DNA of 64,000 bases from Shewanella livingstonensis (GTDB lineage Bacteria > Pseudomonadota > Gammaproteobacteria > Enterobacterales > Shewanellaceae). The stretch is from positions 4,350,001-4,414,000 of the forward strand of contig NZ_CP034015.1 in the NCBI RefSeq assembly GCF_003855395.1, given 5' to 3'. Below the pieces are notes generated by a model. The model ran no database searches, was not told the origin of the DNA, and saw only the letters and a list, made by a program, of their open reading frames with translations. Shown one piece after another: positions 6,690 through 64,000 of the stretch. Positions within the stretch are counted from its first letter, which is position 1, and the number at the start of each line of letters is the position of its first letter. The translations under genes and the position numbers were made by a program.

Positions 6690-7663
6690 CATGCCTATGC
6701 ACTTGGCTCAGTAAGAATGTATTGGCGTGTGAATCATTGCCAAATTTAACAATCTGTTAGGTATTTCTCTTTCCATTTGTCTACGATTGAACCGATAACA
6801 GAACTCACTCAGGTATTCTTGTAGGTACTTTCCTGAAATACCATGAAATGTCCCAAGTAAAAATGCCTTTAAGTTACCAATGGCAATATGAACCCAAGGC
6901 AGCCATTCATCAACAAGCTCACTGGGGGTAACCCTCGCTTCATGTTGTTGAGTCTTATCTATAATGTTCAACGCAGGTAAGCCGTCTGTATGCACTTCTT
7001 GCTGTCTCGTTAAGTGTTTGGCAACGAACTTTTCAACACTATCATGGCAAACGCTATTCACAGCCTGCATAGCAATAAATCCAGCTCTTTTTCCTTTGCT
7101 TTCAACGGCAACTAAAACAGGTGTTTTACCTTCTGCTCCACGTCCACGCTTGCCCTTCCTTCTGCCACCCACTAACGCATCATCAATTTCAATGACGCCT
7201 GACAGTCTATATAAGCTGTCTCTATGGCCCATAGCCGTTCTCAGCTTACTTAATATTAAACGTGCCGTTCGCCAATTAACTTCAATGTGCTTGCTCAGTC
7301 TTAATGCCGAAATACTGCCTTTATCTGAGCCTAAAAAGTAGATAGCCCAAAACCACTTAGTGATAGGAATACGGCTACCGTGGAATAAAGTGTCCGCTGT
7401 GACCGATGTTTGTTTATGACATTGACTGCATTCATATACATTGCGGGTTGCAAGCTCATAAGCATGCTCACAAGAGCATCTAGGACAAACAAAGCCATTA
7501 GGCCATCTCATTTTCTTAATGTGATTTAAGCAATCAGTTTCAGAGCTGAATTGACGTTGCCATTCAAAAAAACTCGCTTCAGGCATTTTCATAGCAAATC
7601 TCACTTCTAGTCTTGATTTATACTATAAGAATAGGCCAAAACTGACTCAGATGCATAGGCATG
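6690..7663 (-). mobile_element. Complete IS1595-family insertion sequence, 974 bp
   Basis: The element is bounded by imperfect terminal inverted repeats. The left end begins CATGCCTATGCACTTGG. The right end read inward begins CATGCCTATGCATCTGA. They match at 19 of the first 23 positions. A perfect 8-bp duplication, TAGTTATT, flanks it. It carries one intact transposase gene on the minus strand, so it looks autonomous and fairly recent. It landed between ugpQ and a dehydrogenase gene and breaks neither. Family assignment rests on the transposase, the repeat ends and the duplication length. Confidence 0.92.
6708..7592 (-). CDS. IS1595-family transposase (ISXO2-like)
   Basis: 294 residues from the ATG at 7592; an in-frame GTG at 7604 is the alternative. 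The N-terminus has the zinc-ribbon of this family (CPRC and CSQC pairs, about residues 37-60). The DDE-type catalytic core then shows EIDDALVGG (first Asp) and HTDGLPAL (second Asp). It ends in IGNLKAFLLGTFHGIS, where Asn stands in place of the usual acidic third residue, as in the ISSod11-like subgroup. The YLSEFCYRFNRR tail is also typical. The frame is intact. Confidence 0.93.
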   Translation of the reverse strand: MKMPEASFFEWQRQFSSETDCLNHIKKMRWPNGFVCPRCSCEHAYELATRNVYECSQCHKQTSVTADTLFHGSRIPITKWFWAIYFLGSDKGSISALRLSKHIEVNWRTARLILSKLRTAMGHRDSLYRLSGVIEIDDALVGGRRKGKRGRGAEGKTPVLVAVESKGKRAGFIAMQAVNSVCHDSVEKFVAKHLTRQQEVHTDGLPALNIIDKTQQHEARVTPSELVDEWLPWVHIAIGNLKAFLLGTFHGISGKYLQEYLSEFCYRFNRRQMEREIPNRLLNLAMIHTPIHSY

Positions 7664-7671
7664 TAGTTATT
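7664..7671. repeat. Target-site duplication, right copy (TAGTTATT)
   Basis: Partner of 6682-6689. It directly abuts the right inverted repeat of the insertion sequence. Confidence 0.9.
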
Positions 7672-7731
7672 TAACATCAGCATGTAAATCAAGCTCAGAT
7701 TATTTATCCAACGTTTGACAATGAGGTTAAT

Positions 7732-8685
7732 GTGACACATAAACTGTTATTACTGACCAGAGAAAACGACCGATATCGGCAACTATTAACAACGCTTTGC
7801 TTGCCGAACCTCGAAATTGTTGACGATCTGATGGTTGATGATTCAGGCCATTACACTGGTGGCAATAGTAGCGATGCCGATATTTGGTTAGCAGAACCTC
7901 ATCTAGCCGCTTCATTATTGCCGCATGCAATGGCACCCAAATGGTTACAATCTACCTTTGCCGGTGTCGATGCATTAATGCATCCTTCGTTACCACATGA
8001 TTATTTACTGACTAATATTCGCGGTGTGTTTGGCCCGCTTATGAGCGAATATGTGTTTGGTTACCTATTAAGTCATTATCGCCACCATACTCAATATACT
8101 CAGCAGCAACAGCAACAACTTTGGCAGCCAGGTAGTTACCGAACCTTGCAAGGCTTACAGCTACTCATTTTAGGCACAGGTTCTATTGCTCAACACCTTG
8201 CTAAAACCGCCCATCATTTTGGTATGACCGTCAGCGGGCTTAATCGAAAAGGTGGTCATGTTAGTGAATTTGATAGCATCGACACAATGGATAAACTAAC
8301 CGACTATTTACCGCTAGCAGATGTGATTGTTAGCGTATTGCCCAATACACCTCAAACCAAATATATTTTAAATGCGGCTAATCTTACGTTATTAAAAGCA
8401 GATGCTATGTTATTTAATATTGGCCGAGGTAGCACTATTGAATTAGAAGCGCTACAAGCTGAATTAACCTTACAGCCACAACGCCAAGCCATATTAGATG
8501 TATTTGAACGAGAGCCCTTACCTGCTGATCATCCACTATGGCATTATGATAACGTCATTATTACACCACATATCGCCGCACCAAGCTTCCCAGAGCAAGT
8601 AATACAGGTATTCAATCACAACTATCAGCTATGGCAACAATCCAAACCATTACAGTATGTGGTCGACGTTAACCAAGGTTACTAA
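7732..8685 (+). CDS. D-2-hydroxyacid dehydrogenase (GhrA-like)
   Basis: 317 residues with a GTG start 9 bp after an ATGAGG ribosome-binding stretch. NAD(P)-dependent D-2-hydroxyacid dehydrogenases reduce 2-ketoacids such as glyoxylate or hydroxypyruvate. The nucleotide-binding motif LGTGSIAQHLAK is at about 142-153. The catalytic trio is readable: Arg in NIGRGS, Glu in FEREPLPADHPLW and His in ITPHIAAPS. Substrate cannot be read from sequence; GhrA-like proteins are the nearest family I recognise. The insertion sequence lies 68 bp upstream, so the native promoter may have been altered or separated. Confidence 0.88.
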   Translation: MTHKLLLLTRENDRYRQLLTTLCLPNLEIVDDLMVDDSGHYTGGNSSDADIWLAEPHLAASLLPHAMAPKWLQSTFAGVDALMHPSLPHDYLLTNIRGVFGPLMSEYVFGYLLSHYRHHTQYTQQQQQQLWQPGSYRTLQGLQLLILGTGSIAQHLAKTAHHFGMTVSGLNRKGGHVSEFDSIDTMDKLTDYLPLADVIVSVLPNTPQTKYILNAANLTLLKADAMLFNIGRGSTIELEALQAELTLQPQRQAILDVFEREPLPADHPLWHYDNVIITPHIAAPSFPEQVIQVFNHNYQLWQQSKPLQYVVDVNQGY

Positions 8686-33152: not shown

Positions 33153-33545
33153 TTATTCAGCGTTTTCTTCAGCGCTTTCTTCTACATTACGGTCATCAGA
33201 AGGTGAACGACGTGAATCACGTTCGTCTCTTGCTTTTGCCATAGGAGAAGCTTCAGTAACGGCAACTTTAGTGCGCATTACCATGTTACGCAGAACAGCG
33301 TCGTTGAAACGGAAAGCTGTTTCTAGTTCTTCAATAGACTCTGCAGATGCTTCTACGTTCATAAGAACATAGTGAGCTTTATGTAGGTCTTGGATCGGGT
33401 AAGCCAATTGACGACGGCCCCAATCTTCTAAACGGTGGACTGTACCATTAGCAGCGGTGATAACACCGGTGTAACGCTCAATCATACCTGGGACTTGTTC
33501 ACTTTGATCTGGGTGAACCATAAATACGATTTCATAATGACGCAT
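33153..33545 (-). CDS. rpsF: 30S ribosomal protein S6
   Basis: 130 residues. The S6 fold is clear ([47 protein letters not shown]). The C-terminus is an acidic Glu-rich tail (ESAEENAE), the type that RimK extends with glutamates. It is the first gene of its operon, with AAGGAG before the ATG and a conserved leader upstream. Confidence 0.98.
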
Positions 33546-33590
33546 TTATTGCTCCTTACGGTTAAGTAGCCTCTTTTCAGGCTCAGTCAG
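33546..33590 (-). promoter_or_regulatory. Probable S6:S18 autoregulatory mRNA leader
   Basis: Read on the minus strand, a stem (AGCCT/AGGCT, 33568-33583) stands just before AACCGTAAGGAG, so a CCG triplet directly precedes the ribosome-binding site of rpsF. A CCG element near the Shine-Dalgarno is the hallmark of the known S6:S18 leader motif, which lets the S6-S18 dimer repress its own operon. The fold was judged by eye. Confidence 0.5.
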
Positions 33591-33761
33591 ACCAATGTGG
33601 AGGCAAGGAACGAATTAAAGTGACTGATTTGAGCGCGCGATGATACATAAAGCGTGTCGTAAACTCAAGCATTAACTCACTCTTTTCAGCAATCTTGATT
33701 ACAGGTATGATATCAACAGTCAAAATATCGCGTTTACGCCTTAACAGAATAAAACACACAA

Positions 33762-56814: not shown

Positions 56815-58299
56815 ATGAAAGCGTCACTCCAACTTAAAATGGGTCAACACTTAACCATGACCCCACAATTGCAGCAAGCCATTCGCTTACTGCAATTATC
56901 GTCATTGGAGCTACAGCAAGAAATCCAACAAGCATTGGATTCAAATCCATTACTTGAAATAGAAGATGAGTTTCCTGAAGCAAAAGATCCCATAAAAGAA
57001 CATCGTGACCAAGCTGATACCGACTTTAGTGACAACAGCATAGTCAATGTTGAAAAAGACACCTCCACAGTCGACACAGCAGAATCCATGACCAAAGAAA
57101 CCATGGATGATTTAGCCATGGATACCACATGGGATGAGGTCTATACCGCCTCACCGATGTCGGGTTCAGGCAGTGCGAGCATGCGCGATGATGACATGCC
57201 TTTCCAAGGTGAAACTACCGAAGGTTTGTATGAACATTTAGAATGGCAAAAAAATCTTACGCCATTTTCAGAGACCGATTTGGCGATTGCTACAGCCATT
57301 ATTGATGCCATAGATGAACGCGGCTATTTAACCCAAAGCACTGAAGACATTCTCGAAGCCATGGGCGATGAAAATGTTGAGCTCGATGAAGTTGAAGCAG
57401 TATTAAAACGCATTCAACACTTTGACCCCGTTGGCGTTGCTGCACGTGATTTAAGTGAATGTTTGATCATTCAATTAGCCCAATATGCCAATACAACACC
57501 ACATATTGATAATGCTCGACTGCTAATTAAAAACTATTTAGATTTAATTGCTGGCCGTGATTTCAGATTATTAATGCGTAAAACTAAGCTAAAAGAAAAT
57601 GAATTGCGTGATGCCATCACCCTAATCCAGTCACTCAATCCCCGTCCGGGCTTATTAATTACCGCCATTGATGACGAATACGTCATCCCAGATGTCACAG
57701 TACTAAAGAAAAATGGCCGTTGGGTTGTAGAGTTAAATCCAGACAATATGCCTAAGATTGGCGTTAATCAGCAATATGCCGCGATGGCCAGAAATAGTAA
57801 AAGCTCATCTGACAGTCAATTTATTCGCGGTCACTTGCAAGAGGCTAAATGGTTTATTAAAAGTATCGAAAGCCGCAATGATACCTTACTCAAGGTAGCC
57901 AACTGCATTGTGAAATTTCAGCAAGGCTTCTTTGAATATGGTGAAGAAGCTATGAAGCCTATGGTACTTAATGACATAGCTGAAGCGGTAGAAATGCATG
58001 AATCAACTATTTCGCGTGTCACCACACAGAAATATATGCACACTCCTCGTGGGCTATTTGAACTAAAATACTTCTTCTCTAGTCATGTCAGCACAGATGA
58101 TGGCGGGGAATGCTCATCAACAGCCATTCGTGCTTTTATCAAAAAGCTGGTTGCTGCAGAAAACCAGAAAAAACCGTTAAGTGACAGTAAAATGGCTCAA
58201 CTTCTGGCAGAACAGGGCATAAACGTTGCTCGTCGTACGATTGCAAAATACCGTGAAGCAATGATGATCCCGCCCTCAAACCAACGTAAGAGTTTATAA
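56815..58299 (+). CDS. rpoN: RNA polymerase sigma-54 factor
   Basis: 494 residues. Region I ([20 protein letters not shown]) binds activators and core enzyme. An acidic region II (about 50-120) follows, then the core-binding domain, and the C-terminal RpoN box [12 protein letters not shown] recognises the -24 element. Sigma-54 serves nitrogen, flagellar and other genes, and needs AAA+ activators. Its neighbours are the nitrogen-PTS genes. Confidence 0.97.
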
Positions 58300-58323
58300 T
58301 CTACAGGTAATGGAGGAATTTTT

Positions 58324-58611
58324 ATGCAAATAAATTTAACTGGGCGTCATGTCGACATAACCGAATCTTTACGTGAATACGTGCAAGGTAAATTTTCAAA
58401 GCTTGAACGGCACTTCGATCAGATCCATAATGTACACGTTGTGCTCAATGTAGAAAAATTACAACAAAAAGCAGAAGCTAAAATCAACCTTAATGGTGCA
58501 GAGATTTTTGCCATGTCAGAAAGTAATGATATGTATGCTGCTATAGACGCCCTGATCGATAAACTCGACCGTCAGGTAATTAAACACAAAGAGAAGTATA
58601 CAAAACACTAA
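58324..58611 (+). CDS. hpf: Ribosome hibernation promoting factor, short form
   Basis: 95 residues, GGAGG before the ATG. The short HPF/YfiA fold (INLTGRHVDITESLREYVQGK) lacks the C-terminal extension of long HPF. It binds the decoding centre and promotes 100S dimers in stationary phase. It lies 24 bp after rpoN, as in E. coli. Confidence 0.96.
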   Translation: MQINLTGRHVDITESLREYVQGKFSKLERHFDQIHNVHVVLNVEKLQQKAEAKINLNGAEIFAMSESNDMYAAIDALIDKLDRQVIKHKEKYTKH

Positions 58612-58613
58612 CG

Positions 58614-59057
58614 ATGGAACTTTGTACCATTCTGCAGCCGGAATGCACTACCTGTGCCACACCGGGCAGTAAGAAAAAAGTACTGGAACTCATCAGCAAT
58701 TTAGTCGCTGCCCAGTACCCAACCCTGTCTTCGCAAGAGGTTTTTGAAAGCCTATTAGCGAGAGAGAAAATGGGTAGCACAGGTATAGGAAATGGCATTG
58801 CGATACCTCATGGTCGGTTGACGACCATTGATCACCCTATTGCGATATTTGTTAAATGTGAAGAAGCCATTGCCTTTGATGCAATAGATAAGCAGCCCGT
58901 GGATATTTTATTTGCTTTGTTAGTACCAGCAGATCAGTGCCAGCAACATTTAGGCACATTATCGAGTATGGCTAAAAAGCTAAGCGATAAGCAAATATTG
59001 AAACAGCTTCGTAAAACTCACGACTCAACAGAACTTTATCAGGTTATAACTGCATGA
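58614..59057 (+). CDS. ptsN: Nitrogen-PTS EIIA protein PtsN
   Basis: 147 residues. The EIIA phosphorylation site is the His in GIAIPHGR (about residue 64). PtsN regulates potassium and nitrogen responses according to its phosphorylation state. It begins 2 bp after hpf and overlaps rapZ by 4 bp. Confidence 0.95.
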
Positions 59058-59917
59058 AACTTGTCATAGTATCGGGACGTTCAGGCTCAGGAAAGTCCGT
59101 TGCCCTGAGAGTATTAGAAGACCTAGGATATTATTGTGTTGATAATTTGCCTTTACCACTTATTGGCACATTACTAGCCCAGCTAAAGGGCAGTAATGAT
59201 TTAGTGGCGATTAGTGTTGATGTGCGTAACATTGCTGAACAAGGCAAAGTGCTGCAAGACCAATTAGCCCTACTTGAAGATGACACTGAAATTATCAGCT
59301 TCTTTTTAAATTCTAATGATAAAGTATTACTTAAGCGCTACAGCGAAACACGTCGATTACACCCGTTATCTAAAAATCATATTTCACTGCAAGAAGCGAT
59401 AAAACTAGAAGGCCATTTACTTGAGCCAATCGCAAAAATTGTTGACCATTACATAGATACTTCTGCACTGAACATCTACGAATTAAGCGATCAGGTTAGG
59501 CAAATATTATTAGGCAGTGTCGATAAAGAGTTAGTGATTAACTTTGAATCTTTTGGCTTTAAGCACGGCATGCCAACTGAAGCTGACTTTATGTTTGATG
59601 TGCGCTTCCTGCCTAATCCACACTGGGAAATAGAGCTGCGTCCCTTTACAGGTTTAGATGAACCAGTACAAGAATTCTTAGGTCGACAACCATTGGTTAA
59701 TAAGTTTATCTGGCAAATTGAAAATCTATTTGAAACCTGGATGCCGCATTTAGAACGCAACAATCGCAGCTACCTTACCATCGCTATTGGATGTACTGGT
59801 GGCCAGCATCGTTCGGTATATATTGCAGACCAATTAGCAAAACGATTTAGACAAGGCAGTAAACATACTGTTAATGCTCGCCACAGAGAATTAAAGATAA
59901 GTGGTACCAATAGCTAA
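59054..59917 (+). CDS. rapZ: RNase adapter protein RapZ
   Basis: 287 residues. Walker A GRSGSGKS at residues 8-15 and the conserved C-terminal [11 protein letters not shown]. In E. coli RapZ presents GlmZ small RNA to RNase E and senses glucosamine-6-phosphate, controlling GlmS. No glmZ-like RNA was identified in this window. Confidence 0.96.
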
Positions 59918-59937
59918 GTGAGCATAGGATCGAACGG

Positions 59938-60213
59938 ATGATCAAACTTGAACGCCAAGTTACCATTTCAAATAAATTAGGACTACATGCCCGAGCAGCA
60001 ACAAAATTAGCGGTTTTAGCCTATGATTTTGATGCCAATATTACCTTAACTCAAGGCGATAAAAATGCCAGTGCAGCGAGCGTACTGGGGTTGTTAATGC
60101 TTGAAAGTGGCATAGGAAAAATTATCACGGTAACGGCACAAGGTCCAGATGCCGAAGTAGCATTAAACGCAGTGTGTGATCTCATCAATGCAAAATTTGA
60201 TGAGTCTTGCTAA
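59938..60213 (+). CDS. npr: Nitrogen-PTS phosphocarrier NPr
   Basis: 91 residues, HPr-fold. The phosphorylated His is in LGLHARAATKL (about residue 16). NPr passes phosphate from EI-Ntr to PtsN. It closes the rpoN-hpf-ptsN-rapZ-npr run, 20 bp after rapZ. Confidence 0.95.
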   Translation: MIKLERQVTISNKLGLHARAATKLAVLAYDFDANITLTQGDKNASAASVLGLLMLESGIGKIITVTAQGPDAEVALNAVCDLINAKFDESC

Positions 60214-60700
60214 ATTTGTGAATAGTACGATTGGCAAATCATTAATTTTTTAATCTACCATCATATCTAGTTATTATGGCCACTGAAGACAATGCCCATA
60301 ATAACCACACTGTCACGACATTGATTGCTCAACAGTGGGCATCAATTCCCCGACAATATTAGCCCTTAGGTTTATCTCACGGCGCAGATACCAATCTGAT
60401 TAAGTATCAGTTCAATCTGCGAGAGTTTAGCGTTTAACATGATACTAATTTAACTGCTTTCAGCAACGGATCCAGTATGACTCTGCATCCGTGCAGTCGT
60501 TTGTCTATATTATATAAAGCAGCCTAAACAATGCATAATTTCGTCCAGCGGAAACAACCCCTGTATTCCATTTATGCGTTACATTGTCTTACGTAAGCAA
60601 CAACTATTATGGTTCTAATACGTCTTGAACAAACAAGCCTGAGCAGCCCAACATGATGACATACTTAATGATATTGGTATGATAAATAGGAAGTAGATAT
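60214..60700. other. Intergenic region between npr and mgtE
   Basis: 487 bp without a gene I can support. It includes a hairpin at 60270-60305. I looked for an M-box or mgtA-type leader ahead of mgtE and could not recognise one. AGGAAG gives the mgtE ribosome-binding site. Confidence 0.5.
60270..60305. repeat. Inverted repeat downstream of npr
   Basis: GTTATTATGG and CCATAATAAC separated by 16 bases. No T-run follows, so termination is uncertain. Confidence 0.45.
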
Positions 60701-62065
60701 ATGGGTAAAGAGTACCTAGACAATGAGATAACAGAACAACGACTCAATCAACTTGCTCAAGCGCTAGACAGTGGTTTGTTTGTCCATGCTCGTAATATGT
60801 TACATACCATGTCGCCTAACGATGTCGCGCTCATTCTCGAATCATCACCGCCCAAAAATCGACAGGTATTATGGCAACTCATTGATCAACAATATGCGGG
60901 TGAAATTCTTGACGAATTAGGTGAAGAACTCAAAGATTCACTCATTAGCAGCATGACACCAGAAAAACTTGCTCAAGCCACAATCGGAATGGACACCGAT
61001 GACCTTGCTTATATTCTCCGAAGCTTACCCGATACTGTTTACAAGAAAGTACTCAAATCAATGCGAAGCCAAGACCGGGACAGAGTAGAACAGGCACTGC
61101 GTTACCCTGATGATACCGCTGGCAGTATCATGAACACCGATACTGTCACCCTTAGGCCCGATGTGAATATCGAAGTGGTATTGCGCTATTTACGTCAACG
61201 AGGAAATTTGCCCGACACTACCGACACCTTATATGTTGTCGACCGTCAAGATCATGTTTTAGGCGGAGTCAGGTTAGTCGATTTACTAACATGCGATCCT
61301 AGCGTCACAGTTCGCAGTATTATGGACACAGAGTTAGAAAGTATTCCGGTTGAGATGTCTGATAAAGATGTCGCACAAAAATTTGAACGACTCGATTGGA
61401 TATCCGCTCCTGTCGTCGATAGCCAAGCAAAATTACTTGGACGGATCACTATCGATGATATTATCGATGTGATCCGTGAAGATGCCGAACATTCAATGAT
61501 GGGTATGGCAGGGATGGATGATGATGAGGATACCTTTGGTCCAGTGCTAAAAAGCACCCTAAGACGCTCTCTATGGTTAACGATTAACTTATTTGCTGCC
61601 TTACTTGCCTCATCTGTCAGTAATATGTTTGAGGGCACCTTGGAGCAGTTTGCTACTATCGCGATTTTAATGACTATCGTTCCAAGTATGGGCGGCGTTG
61701 CCGGCAATCAAACTTTAGCACTGGTGATCCGTGGTATTGCACTTGGACATATTGGCCAAAGTAATTCACGTTGGTTGATAGGCAAAGAGCTCGGTATCGG
61801 ATTGCTCAACGGCATAATGTGGTCTGTGTTGGTTTTTTTTGCAGTATGGCTGTGGAAAGACGACATCGCGTTAGGCGGATTAATTGGCAGTGCTATGCTG
61901 ATTAATATGACAGTGGCAGGCTTTGCTGGCGCTACCATTCCAATCATGCTCAAAAAGCTCAATATCGACCCTGCACTTGCTGGAGGCATGGTACTTACCA
62001 CAGTGACAGATGTGGTTGGCTTATTTGCATTTTTAGGTTTGGCGACACTGTATCTCGTGCACTAG
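60701..62065 (+). CDS. mgtE: Magnesium transporter MgtE
   Basis: 454 residues. Cytosolic N-domain (about 20-135), two CBS domains (about 140-260) and five membrane helices (about 285-452) follow the known MgtE layout. PSMGGVAGNQTLAL near residue 326 lies in the ion-pore region. MgtE is a Mg2+-gated Mg2+ channel. The ATG follows AGGAAG. It is a single-gene unit. Confidence 0.95.
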   Translation: MGKEYLDNEITEQRLNQLAQALDSGLFVHARNMLHTMSPNDVALILESSPPKNRQVLWQLIDQQYAGEILDELGEELKDSLISSMTPEKLAQATIGMDTDDLAYILRSLPDTVYKKVLKSMRSQDRDRVEQALRYPDDTAGSIMNTDTVTLRPDVNIEVVLRYLRQRGNLPDTTDTLYVVDRQDHVLGGVRLVDLLTCDPSVTVRSIMDTELESIPVEMSDKDVAQKFERLDWISAPVVDSQAKLLGRITIDDIIDVIREDAEHSMMGMAGMDDDEDTFGPVLKSTLRRSLWLTINLFAALLASSVSNMFEGTLEQFATIAILMTIVPSMGGVAGNQTLALVIRGIALGHIGQSNSRWLIGKELGIGLLNGIMWSVLVFFAVWLWKDDIALGGLIGSAMLINMTVAGFAGATIPIMLKKLNIDPALAGGMVLTTVTDVVGLFAFLGLATLYLVH

Positions 62066-62635
62066 CGTATTGATCTAATAGTTAAACCACCGCAGATCGG
62101 GGCAGGTAATCGTTATCATACCGTCCTTTGTCTCGCTCACGGTGTTGCATTGATTCGCAATAAACTTGCTATAAACGAAGCAGCTAATCAAAGCCTGCGC
62201 CTTGTGAGCCGCAAAATGACAGGCCTTGATATAAATAGGTCAAATGTTGTTTATCTTACTTATCCCACCTCTTAACTCGTGATGAGATTATTTAACTTGA
62301 ATTACAGATAATCAATGTATTAATTCATTAGTTATTTTATGAGTTCAACCTCTGCTTAGGTCGATTTTATTACTCATATCTAGACGGTTTCAGGACATAA
62401 TAATTACCTAGAACTAAAAAATCTACATCGAAAAAGCTAAAAATAGCGATATTAAGCAGCGCGTCTTCAACCGAATTCAAATGACTTACATTATTTTCAA
62501 ACCATAAGTTCTAGCCATTTAATTATAACTCTGTCCTCATGTTGTCATTAACCTGACCTTTTATTGCCATATTTATCATCGATACTGCGCAACAACAACA
62601 ACGGATCAAATGGCTTTGATTAGACTATTATTTAT

Positions 62636-62666
62636 CACCAAATTAGTGCAACTGCACCAAATTAGT
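62636..62666. promoter_or_regulatory. Operator-like direct repeat with central palindrome
   Basis: CACCAAATTAGT occurs twice (62636-62647 and 62655-62666). The junction forms the palindrome GTGCAACTGCAC (62646-62657). It lies about 100 bp upstream of a promoter-like site, the usual distance for an enhancer of sigma-54 promoters. Confidence 0.4.
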
Positions 62667-62741
62667 TAATAGATAGAAAATATATAAACCGCATAAAAAA
62701 TTAACACACTGATAAATATACATTAAAAATATATATTAAAG

Positions 62742-62758
62742 TTGGCACAAGCTTTCCA
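62742..62758 (+). promoter_or_regulatory. Possible sigma-54 promoter
   Basis: TTGGCAC then, after six bases, TTCCA. The consensus is TTGGCACG-N4-TTGCA, so the G of the -12 GC is lost and one -24 base differs. The same bases could serve as a weak sigma-70 -35 box with TAATGT 16 bp later. Confidence 0.33.
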
Positions 62759-62828
62759 TATAGTAATGTATACCCACTAAGTAGTAGTTTTATTTTTGAG
62801 CAGTCTGTGGCTGTTGTAGGAGATGGCA

Positions 62829-62981
62829 ATGAATAAAGTAACCATAAAGAATCGCATTCAGTCGATAAATACCATGGTCAGTAATGCGATTGCACAAGGT
62901 CGCCACAATATTTTTTTCTTCGCACATATCGGTTACAGCCAATGGGATGAAGTAGAAACTCGCTCAGGTAAACACAGATAA
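62829..62981 (+). CDS. Unrecognised 50-residue protein
   Basis: Frame from ATG 62829 to TAA 62979-62981; AGGAG lies 6 bp before the ATG. An in-frame ATG at 62823 touches the ribosome-binding site and is less likely. The protein starts MNKVTIKNRIQSINTMVSNA and has an aromatic patch NIFFFAHIGYSQWDE near the middle. No signal peptide. I recognise no family. It lies 18 bp before the helix-turn-helix gene, so the two may form an operon. Confidence 0.5.
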   Translation: MNKVTIKNRIQSINTMVSNAIAQGRHNIFFFAHIGYSQWDEVETRSGKHR

Positions 62982-62999
62982 ATTTACAGGAATTATTTG

Positions 63000-63251
63000 A
63001 TGTATATATCTAGTACAAAACAGTATTCAGTGGACTTACAGACACAAGTGATTAATGAAGTCAAAAACCACAAGCGCTTATTGTCTGATGTGGCTAAACA
63101 ATACGGTGTCTCAGCTAAAACAGTTTACCAATGGATAAGAAATAGCGATGCTCGTCAAACAGAAAGTAAAGGAGCTATCGTATCAGAAATAGCTTATTTA
63201 CAACAAAAAATTGCCCTGTTAAGCCAGCAATTACAAACAATGGCAAGTTAG
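63000..63251 (+). CDS. Small helix-turn-helix protein (transposase OrfA-like)
   Basis: 83 residues from the ATG at 63000, seven bases after AGGAA. The protein has a helix-turn-helix (about residues 28-48; LLSDVAKQYGVSAKTVYQWI) and a C-terminal helix with leucine spacing (AYLQQKIALLSQQLQ). This is the layout of IS3-type OrfA proteins. No OrfB or other integrase core follows and no IS ends are seen, so it is either an orphan OrfA or a small DNA-binding regulator. Confidence 0.65.
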   Translation: MYISSTKQYSVDLQTQVINEVKNHKRLLSDVAKQYGVSAKTVYQWIRNSDARQTESKGAIVSEIAYLQQKIALLSQQLQTMAS

Positions 63252-63257
63252 TAAGAT

Positions 63258-63470
63258 AAACCGTTTTGGCAAGGATGTTTGGCCGTAATAACAACTCGTT
63301 CCCCAGCAAGTTGATAATACACAGCAACAACATTCTAATAATAAGCGCAAAAAATCTTGCATCCTTGCCACTTTATTGTCCCACCGTTAGCCGTTAAAAA
63401 AGCAGCTAGCATAACAGTTAAGGCGTTATTGGGTCCCCAGGATCTATTATCCAATAACGTCATTTTTATT
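63258..63470. repeat. 213-bp direct repeat, copy 1
   Basis: About 95 percent identical by eye to 63532-63743. It contains arms TGGCAAGGATG (63267-63277) and CATCCTTGCCA (63360-63370), then CGTTATTGG (63424-63432) and CCAATAACG (63451-63459) followed by CATTTTTATT. No consistent reading frame: a one-base length difference shifts any frame. Confidence 0.85.
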
Positions 63471-63531
63471 GAGCTATTTTAGCGTTCGTTATTGATGGAG
63501 CTACTGTCACCATTAGTGGAGCTAAGTATCA

Positions 63532-63743
63532 AAACCGTTTTGGCAAGGATGTTTGACCGTAATAACAACTCGTTCCCCAGCAAGTTGATAATACACAGCA
63601 ATAACATTCTAATAATAAGCGCAAAATACTTGCATCCTTGCCACTTTATTGTCCCACCGTTAGCCGTTAGGAAGGCAGCTAACATTACAGTTAAGGCGTT
63701 ATTGGGTCCCCAGGATTTATTATCCAATAACGTCATTTTTATT
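63532..63743. repeat. 213-bp direct repeat, copy 2
   Basis: Partner of 63258-63470. The same two inverted repeats are present (63541-63551 with 63633-63643, and the CGTTATTGG/CCAATAACG hairpin near its end). Overlapping frames of 85-88 codons on both strands occur only in this copy and do not hold in copy 1. Confidence 0.85.
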
Positions 63744-63865
63744 CCTGCCCTTGGCTGATAAGCTCAAAATAATAATAGCGAGCTTAGTAACACTTTACAG
63801 CATCGTTAATACCGATTGATGCGGAAGGTGTTGAATACCACGACAACAAAAAATACAATGCAAAC

Positions 63866-63902
63866 AAAAGCCCCAAAGCAAAGGATGCAATGGGGCTTTT
63901 TT
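63866..63902. terminator. Terminator near the right edge
   Basis: AAAAGCCCCA and TGGGGCTTTT enclose 15 bases, with TTTTTT on the plus strand and TTTTG on the minus strand. It could serve either direction. Confidence 0.75.
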
Positions 63903-63943
63903 ATCGCTATTGACTCAAACTAGCTCATACTTAACCAAGTAAA

Positions 63944-64000
63944 CTACCGTTTACCCTCAATAATATTTACACTTCCAGTAATTGGTTTTGTAATAGCAAG
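63944..64000 (-). CDS. Possible C-terminal end of a gene entering from the right
   Basis: The minus strand reads LAITKPITGSVNIIEGKR then TAG at 63944-63946. The 18 residues look protein-like, and the hairpin at 63866-63902 would terminate it. Too short to name; could be chance. Confidence 0.35.
   Translation of the reverse strand, partial: LAITKPITGSVNIIEGKR

Follow-up and report, generated by a model that had tools for sequence, protein, structure and literature searches.

Closest described systems

The best analogue of the locus described here is the alphaproteobacterial CIN1, or cuckoo, locus, in which the small DUF1127 protein CcaF1 is co-transcribed with tandem CcsR RNAs that are matured by RNase E with CcaF1 (described in parts of PMC10253847). 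In both cases a small protein gene is followed by tandem homologous structured RNAs carrying a C-rich unpaired motif, and the Shewanella locus is best viewed as working like CIN1 without being a member of it. The Shewanella peptide is not a DUF1127 protein by sequence, the RNA loops read UCCCC(C)A and do not match the CIN1 motif CCUCCUCCC, an HTH gene is added to the set, the promoter is of the sigma54 type rather than RpoHI/RpoHII, and the hosts are Shewanella rather than Alphaproteobacteria.

The ar14 sRNAs display identical C-rich motifs in the unpaired parts of variable hairpins and are linked to nitrogen control, with NfeR1 silencing ntrB through its C-rich motif (parts of PMC10746234). 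They resemble the present RNAs in placing one C-rich motif on hairpins with differing stems, whereas their motif, CCUCCUCCC, is found on three hairpins of one RNA and no peptide-HTH-array layout is described in those parts of the source. GlmY and GlmZ, of the GlmY/GlmZ-RapZ system, are sigma54-controlled sRNAs (parts of PMC4987338); here rapZ lies upstream and sigma54 control is predicted. The repeat units, in contrast, gave no Rfam match to those families at gathering thresholds. Arrays, C-loops and a peptide are also not known for GlmY/GlmZ.

CsrB and CsrC likewise present many identical hairpin loops in one RNA, CsrB acting to titrate CsrA. The loops predicted here are C-rich, however, rather than GGA, and GGA is located in the closing stem of the class found in the window, which denotes the whole 64,000-nt stretch of Shewanella livingstonensis DNA analysed in this work (NZ_CP034015.1, positions 4,350,001 to 4,414,000). 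The HTH protein recalls OrfA of the IS3 family through its HTH_Tnp_1 domain and leucine-rich C-terminal stretch, but no OrfB adjoins it in the window, a single match per genome was obtained in 91 of 93 genomes, and the neighbourhood is fixed in 67 of 74 loci.

No paper on a Shewanella peptide-HTH-RNA locus was found in the open-access literature searched. The main text of a Shewanella sRNA prediction paper, as available in part, does not contain 'tandem', 'rpoN' or 'mgtE' (PMC5471319), and it is possible that this RNA was predicted among the trans candidates of that work.

Organization of the locus

Within the window, the initial annotation had singled out two direct copies of a non-coding unit. 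These copies are the 3' end of a larger set not seen at the time, consisting of a promoter and box, a micropeptide gene, an HTH gene and an RNA array. The anatomy, conservation and synteny of the set, together with the motif positions, stem covariation and strand preference presented below, were read directly from the sequence. The features are as follows.

56815..62065, + strand: conserved upstream neighbours, which from family knowledge we take to be rpoN, hpf, ptsN, rapZ, npr and mgtE; a synteny marker outside the predicted unit
62634..62669, no strand assigned: NtrC-like box, a predicted enhancer, with ATCACCAAATTAGTGCA at 62634-62650 (9 of 12 positions to TGCACCN5GGTGCA) and the adjacent half-like TGCACCAAATTAGTTAA at 62653-62669
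62742..62759, + strand: sigma54-type promoter TTGGCACAAGCTTTCCAT in the -24/-12 layout, the -13 base being C and not the canonical G
62823..62981, + strand: micropeptide ORF of 52 aa with the motif HIGYSQWD, or of 50 aa from the ATG at 62829
62997..63251, + strand: small HTH_Tnp_1 protein of 84 aa (83 aa from the ATG at 63000), an orphan IS3 OrfA-like domain
63258..63470, + strand: RNA unit 1, 213 nt (covariance model R1, E 7e-12)
63268-63277/63360-63369, + strand: closing stem of unit 1 (predicted fold)
63292-63313, + strand: first C-loop hairpin of unit 1, with the loop UUCCCCAG at 63299-63306
63385-63410, + strand: small hairpin of unit 1 (predicted fold)
63422-63461, + strand: second C-loop hairpin of unit 1, with a T-rich tail
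63532..63743, + strand: RNA unit 2, 212 nt, built to the plan of unit 1 (R1, E 7e-12)

The sequence features initially reported for the repeats were all confirmed. The copies at 63258-63470 and 63532-63743 share 95.3% identity over 213 aligned columns and differ in length by one base only. The 11-bp inverted pair TGGCAAGGATG/CATCCTTGCCA (63267-63277/63360-63370) has 82 nt between its arms, and the 9-bp pair CGTTATTGG/CCAATAACG (63424-63432/63451-63459) encloses an 18-nt loop and is followed by TCATTTTTATT. Unit 1 begins 7 nt past the stop of the HTH ORF (62997-63251), and the two unit matches found by blastn in the same genome are both at this locus (63258-63743). For domain 1 and for the 3' half in each of the two copies the fold z-scores were -3.2, -3.4, -4.9 and -4.5, and none of the 200 shuffles of any piece did as well; over a whole 241-nt stretch the score was -2.67 on the + strand and -1.52 on the opposite strand.

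A likeness to the CsrA SELEX consensus, RUACARGGAUGU, is seen in part of the closing stem, GCAAGGAUGU (63267-63278), but this sequence is base-paired and is not shared by other classes. Downstream of the array, at 63846-63906 and ahead of the next, convergent gene, T-rich DNA follows a strong inverted repeat (AAAAGCCCCAAAGCA/TGCAATGGGGCTTTT) that could be the terminator of the whole transcription unit.

The two protein genes

The HTH protein matches PF01527 with an E-value of 8e-8 (32.8 bits; cut-off 24.1), and its dN/dS was 0.03-0.15 in all pairs whose dS was usable (13 of 15). It was matched in 79 of 129 genus genomes at 1e-8 and, when an alignment was used at 1e-12, in 93 of 129, all but two of these with one match each (91/93). 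The loci discussed below derive from 74 of the 79 places, those of G113, G040, G044, G058 and G082 being left out. No match was obtained in 23 further genomes from four other genera of the family. Relatives outside the genus were found in 12 genomes at 1e-10, and in the five inspected downstream (L183, L185, L186, L188 and L189) no such RNA unit was seen. A protein search returned 85 proteins, named 'transposase', 'DNA-binding protein', 'hypothetical' and the like, and every name giving an organism gave Shewanella. A defence or phage origin was considered and set aside, the matches being of a generic HTH kind (best 5e-5 in PADLOC and 3e-6 in PHROGs).

The micropeptide ORF upstream of the HTH gene encodes 28-71 aa with HLGxSQWDVE or a similar motif, is preceded by a ribosome binding site in most loci as judged by eye, and in most close relatives starts at the equivalent of the ATG at 62829. 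In 55 of 74 loci the motif H[LIVM]G.[ST].W was found at no more than 500 nt upstream of the HTH gene; neither strand of the loci (859,798 bases) has it at any other place. In 10 of 10 pairs dN was below dS. A search with 30 micropeptides returned 27 proteins, and all those with an organism name were from Shewanella. By eye the micropeptides resemble the ends of DUF1127 proteins, but an identity with DUF1127 was rejected on profile comparison (probability 0.5, E 0.12). In Pfam at E<=10, ten micropeptides gave no DUF1127 and sub-threshold matches alone, for three of the ten; no DUF1127 was found in the S. livingstonensis genome at E<=1. PADLOC and PHROGs, searched for a defence or phage origin, gave no match for the micropeptide.

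A possible variant promoter upstream of the peptide gene

Transcription is predicted to start near 62769. In 57 of 74 loci the form TGGCAY-N5-TTNCW lies no further than 650 nt upstream of the HTH gene; the rest of the same loci (1,671,496 nt) contains 22 occurrences. Compared with the published sigma54 consensus, TGGCACnnTTnTTGC (parts of PMC8743547), the -24 element TGGCAC is present and the GC of the -12 element is absent, the -13 base being A in 28, C in 18, T in 11 and G in none of the 57 loci. In these 57 loci the -12 element reads TT(A/C/T)CAT and never TTGC, a consistent departure from the consensus. The non-G base at -13 may mark a variant promoter.

The NtrC consensus is given as TGCACCAnnnTGGTGCA (parts of PMC8743547) or TGCACC(A/T)4TGGTGCA (parts of PMC4987338). 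An NtrC-like box matching at 9 or more of 12 positions was found in 48 of 58 loci (one matching at 11) and in 1 of 58 mononucleotide shuffles, and in 46 of the 48 it is located 89-125 nt upstream of the -24 element. The S. livingstonensis glnA gene shares this layout and has the canonical GC and a box of 11/12. From these motifs, sigma54 control by NtrC or a near relative is predicted.

The repeat unit as a predicted structured RNA

No known family had been recognized in the repeats, and this is borne out: an Rfam covariance search of the window and 11 divergent loci at gathering thresholds gave no match to the units, and at E<=5 the region 62500-64000 gave four weak matches only, to eukaryotic families. 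The proposal of a duplicated structured non-coding RNA is supported both by stems that stay paired despite sequence change across the genus and by the absence of an Rfam family. A coding repeat was ruled out by the single-base length changes and covarying stems.

To count stem pairs fairly, 103 units from 47 loci were picked by short sequence anchors with no requirement for pairing, and their arms were paired position by position beyond the anchors, yielding 64 distinct arm pairs at positions 6-14 (576 cells). These comprised 386 Watson-Crick, 94 G-U, 13 A-C and 83 other cells. The paired cells (480/576) exceed the shuffle mean of 337, with 0 of 2000 partner shuffles as high. Partner shuffles gave 112 G-U and 43 A-C, placing the observed values at 0.84 and 0.30 of expectation respectively, with other mismatches depleted likewise; composition alone favours G-U over A-C by 2.6 to 1, and both this count and the first one treat the sequences as unrelated. 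That first count (518 cells: 429 Watson-Crick, 57 G-U, 2 A-C and 30 other; G-U 7 and A-C 8 just inside the stem, at positions 15-16) was biased, as the units had largely been chosen by a descriptor that rewards G-U and penalizes A-C, and for this reason the strand argument rests on the sequence-anchored count. On the opposite strand the roles of G-U and A-C would swap, and therefore an RNA from the protein-gene strand is the better reading; the pairing pattern points to transcription from that strand. In the close class, RNAalifold gave 39 pairs, 10 of them changed on both sides, while the closing stem hardly varies there. Across classes, the C-rich loop sequence is retained while the stems change.

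The initial annotation had offered a duplicated structured DNA site as an alternative. The persistence of G-U and depletion of A-C on the + strand, and the absence of dispersed units, make this less likely, and the same evidence makes a MITE unlikely. Its other suggestion, of twin sRNAs each with its own terminator, was partly right: the RNA units number from 1 to at least 8, in L034 the 26-nt gap between them leaves too little room for each to have its own promoter, and the only conserved promoter-like element found is upstream of the peptide gene. A terminator scan found none, but required loops of 3-8 nt and was blind to the long-loop stems present here. A single promoter with subsequent processing is favoured over two separate genes.

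A shared plan across Shewanella

With one copy as query, blastn matched 14 of 129 genus genomes, and in those 14 the first unit is located about 6 to 60 nt behind the HTH_Tnp_1 gene whenever both are on one contig. Divergent HTH loci also have RNA-like units downstream, which differ in sequence and share a common plan: a 5' box GTTNN, a closing stem starting RRCAR and ending in a CTTGY-like arm, and, inside, a hairpin with CCCC(C)A in its loop. An A-rich stretch is often present as well, and the units finish T-rich. Those of the window's class each carry a further C-loop hairpin with a tail of this kind. The loops seen were UUCCCCAG, UCCCCCAG, CUCCCCCAA, CCCCCAA and similar. A structural descriptor (stem, C-loop hairpin, T-rich tail) matched 44 of 74 loci, the control stretches giving 2 of 73 and 0 of 68. 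It misses the window's own units because of a mismatch within their C-loop hairpin.

Covariance model R1 was built from 39 units of all classes with only the closing stem modelled as paired. At 1e-4 it found units in 61 of 129 genus genomes. Among 394 genomes of the order it matched 18, all Shewanella (1 of 114 genera), weak matches in this search being lost to the filters used. The exact pattern TTTCGRCAAGN{60,90}CTTGYCNTTTTATT was too strict, matching 2 of 394 genomes. A pattern scan of contigs from 84,980 species yielded 36 loci that were confirmed, each under a Shewanella title, and blastn of 62750-63850 against phages and plasmids gave no match. Among the R1 places listed, all adjoin the HTH or peptide gene or are on short contigs or at contig ends, as compared by eye.

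The number of units is as low as 1, in several genomes, and reaches at least 8, the most seen on any one contig. In G093, 11 units were counted over two contigs, maybe partly double-counted, with 8 on one contig. Draft contigs were seen to end inside the array (L040, L041, L042 and L043; G013 and G121), so that copy numbers from draft genomes are lower bounds.

Genomic place and losses

In 67 of 74 loci the set follows rapZ and npr, downstream of rpoN-hpf-ptsN-rapZ-npr(-mgtE). Seven loci are elsewhere, of which G051, G072, G009, G074, G056 and G096 have the promoter and peptide motif and G019 the promoter form only. In G051, G019 and G074 (L129, L134 and L136) a second genomic place of the HTH gene is accompanied by a different, larger RNA, with a CCCCCAAAGG loop hairpin and a strong hairpin and T-run at its end.

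The genus genomes lacking an HTH match at 1e-12 number 36; all have rapZ, and 20 of them were examined at that place. Nothing convincing was found downstream of rapZ in 15 of the 20. In G011 and G052 the set is present with a weaker HTH match, the peptide regex failing in G052, and G060, G115 and G118 have the peptide and RNA with no HTH gene found (E 0.01, sense strand). The promoter, box and RNA of G115 and G118 were recognized by eye, R1 scoring the G118 RNA only at E 0.011. Because these three genomes keep peptide and RNA without it, the HTH gene is, judging by gene content, dispensable, and the promoter, peptide and RNA look like the core of the set. On the reverse strand of L214 and L215 (G118 and G115), at about 7300-7800, a run of two or three consecutive HxGxSQWD peptides precedes one minimal C-loop RNA.

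Proposed function and alternatives

The repeats are proposed to be tandem regulatory sRNAs forming the 3' end of a likely single transcript with the micropeptide and HTH genes, and likely to pair their C-loops with G-rich mRNA sites; this reading is put forward at even chances of being correct. Transcription, processing, the activator, the targets and the roles of both proteins enter it as suppositions. When nitrogen is limiting, sigma54 polymerase at 62742-62759 would be activated from 62634-62669 by NtrC, or by an enhancer-binding protein like it, giving a single transcript spanning the peptide, HTH and array, from which peptide and HTH protein would be translated. RNases would cleave the array into units, all displaying identical C-rich loops, and these would pair with G-rich sites at mRNA starts and block ribosome binding sites, the unit copy number setting the dose. 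The micropeptide would likely aid RNA maturation or use, as CcaF1 does for CcsR, and the HTH protein would likely regulate the unit and could be lost.

Several observations count against this explanation. The -13 base is never G, the peptide is not DUF1127, and 15 of 20 HTH-less genomes examined are without a convincing set at this place. The C-loop sequence differs from the CCUCC anti-Shine-Dalgarno, and the mean length of Hfq-type ARN runs, 2.8, is little above the 2.1 of shuffles.

A more far-reaching proposal is advanced tentatively and is the more doubtful of the two: that the locus represents a new riboregulatory operon class, Shewanella-only in all searches, which combines an HLGxSQW micropeptide as the protein partner of the RNAs, a domesticated transposase DNA-binding domain, a copy-variable C-loop array and a variant sigma54/NtrC promoter, and is independent of CIN1. 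If the proposed function is right, Shewanella, on which much work on respiration is done, possesses a nitrogen-linked RNA regulator that is undescribed and has copy number as built-in dose control; its protein genes now bear the annotations orphan 'transposase' and hypothetical protein. The locus would then be a second example of a small protein with tandem C-loop RNAs, assembled from unrelated parts, making testable both the generality of that pairing and the effect of the small protein on the RNAs.

The main rival is a multivalent sponge, which through its many identical C-loops would titrate either a protein that binds RNA or a G-rich sRNA, with no mRNA pairing. The presence of the loop once or twice per unit, with up to 8 units on one contig, and the retention of its sequence while stems change fit such a role, but the single unit of several genomes would offer little for a sponge, and overall it is considered improbable. 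CsrA is an unlikely ligand given that GGA sits in the closing stem and not in all classes, and we know of no protein in Shewanella that binds such C-rich loops. Less probable still, and unlikely to be correct, is a role solely as 3' structure protecting or attenuating the peptide-HTH mRNA, with no separate function. The first unit does follow the HTH stop closely, at a distance of 7 nt in the window and of up to about 60 nt elsewhere in its class; the units are nevertheless still present in G060, G115 and G118, which gave no HTH gene, and protection of an mRNA would need neither conserved loop sequences nor variable copy number.

That the RNAs replace GlmY/GlmZ as ligands of the RapZ encoded upstream is highly improbable: rapZ is upstream in 67 of 74 loci and GlmY and GlmZ are also sigma54-controlled, via GlrR (parts of PMC4987338), but the units have no Rfam match to either, the set is located elsewhere in seven loci, and the 36 of 36 HTH-less genomes all have rapZ while 15 of the 20 examined lack the set there. 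A MITE-like element or HTH-binding site acting as DNA, as might be suggested by inverted arms spaced 80-130 nt next to a transposase-type HTH gene, is scarcely credible given that G-U is kept and A-C depleted on one strand, that the R1 places listed, compared by eye, all adjoin one of the two protein genes or fall on short contigs or at contig ends, and that no second transposase gene adjoins in the window.

Elsewhere, an RpsF_leader (RF02893) is present at 33543-33627 on the - strand, the sole above-threshold Rfam match in the whole window.
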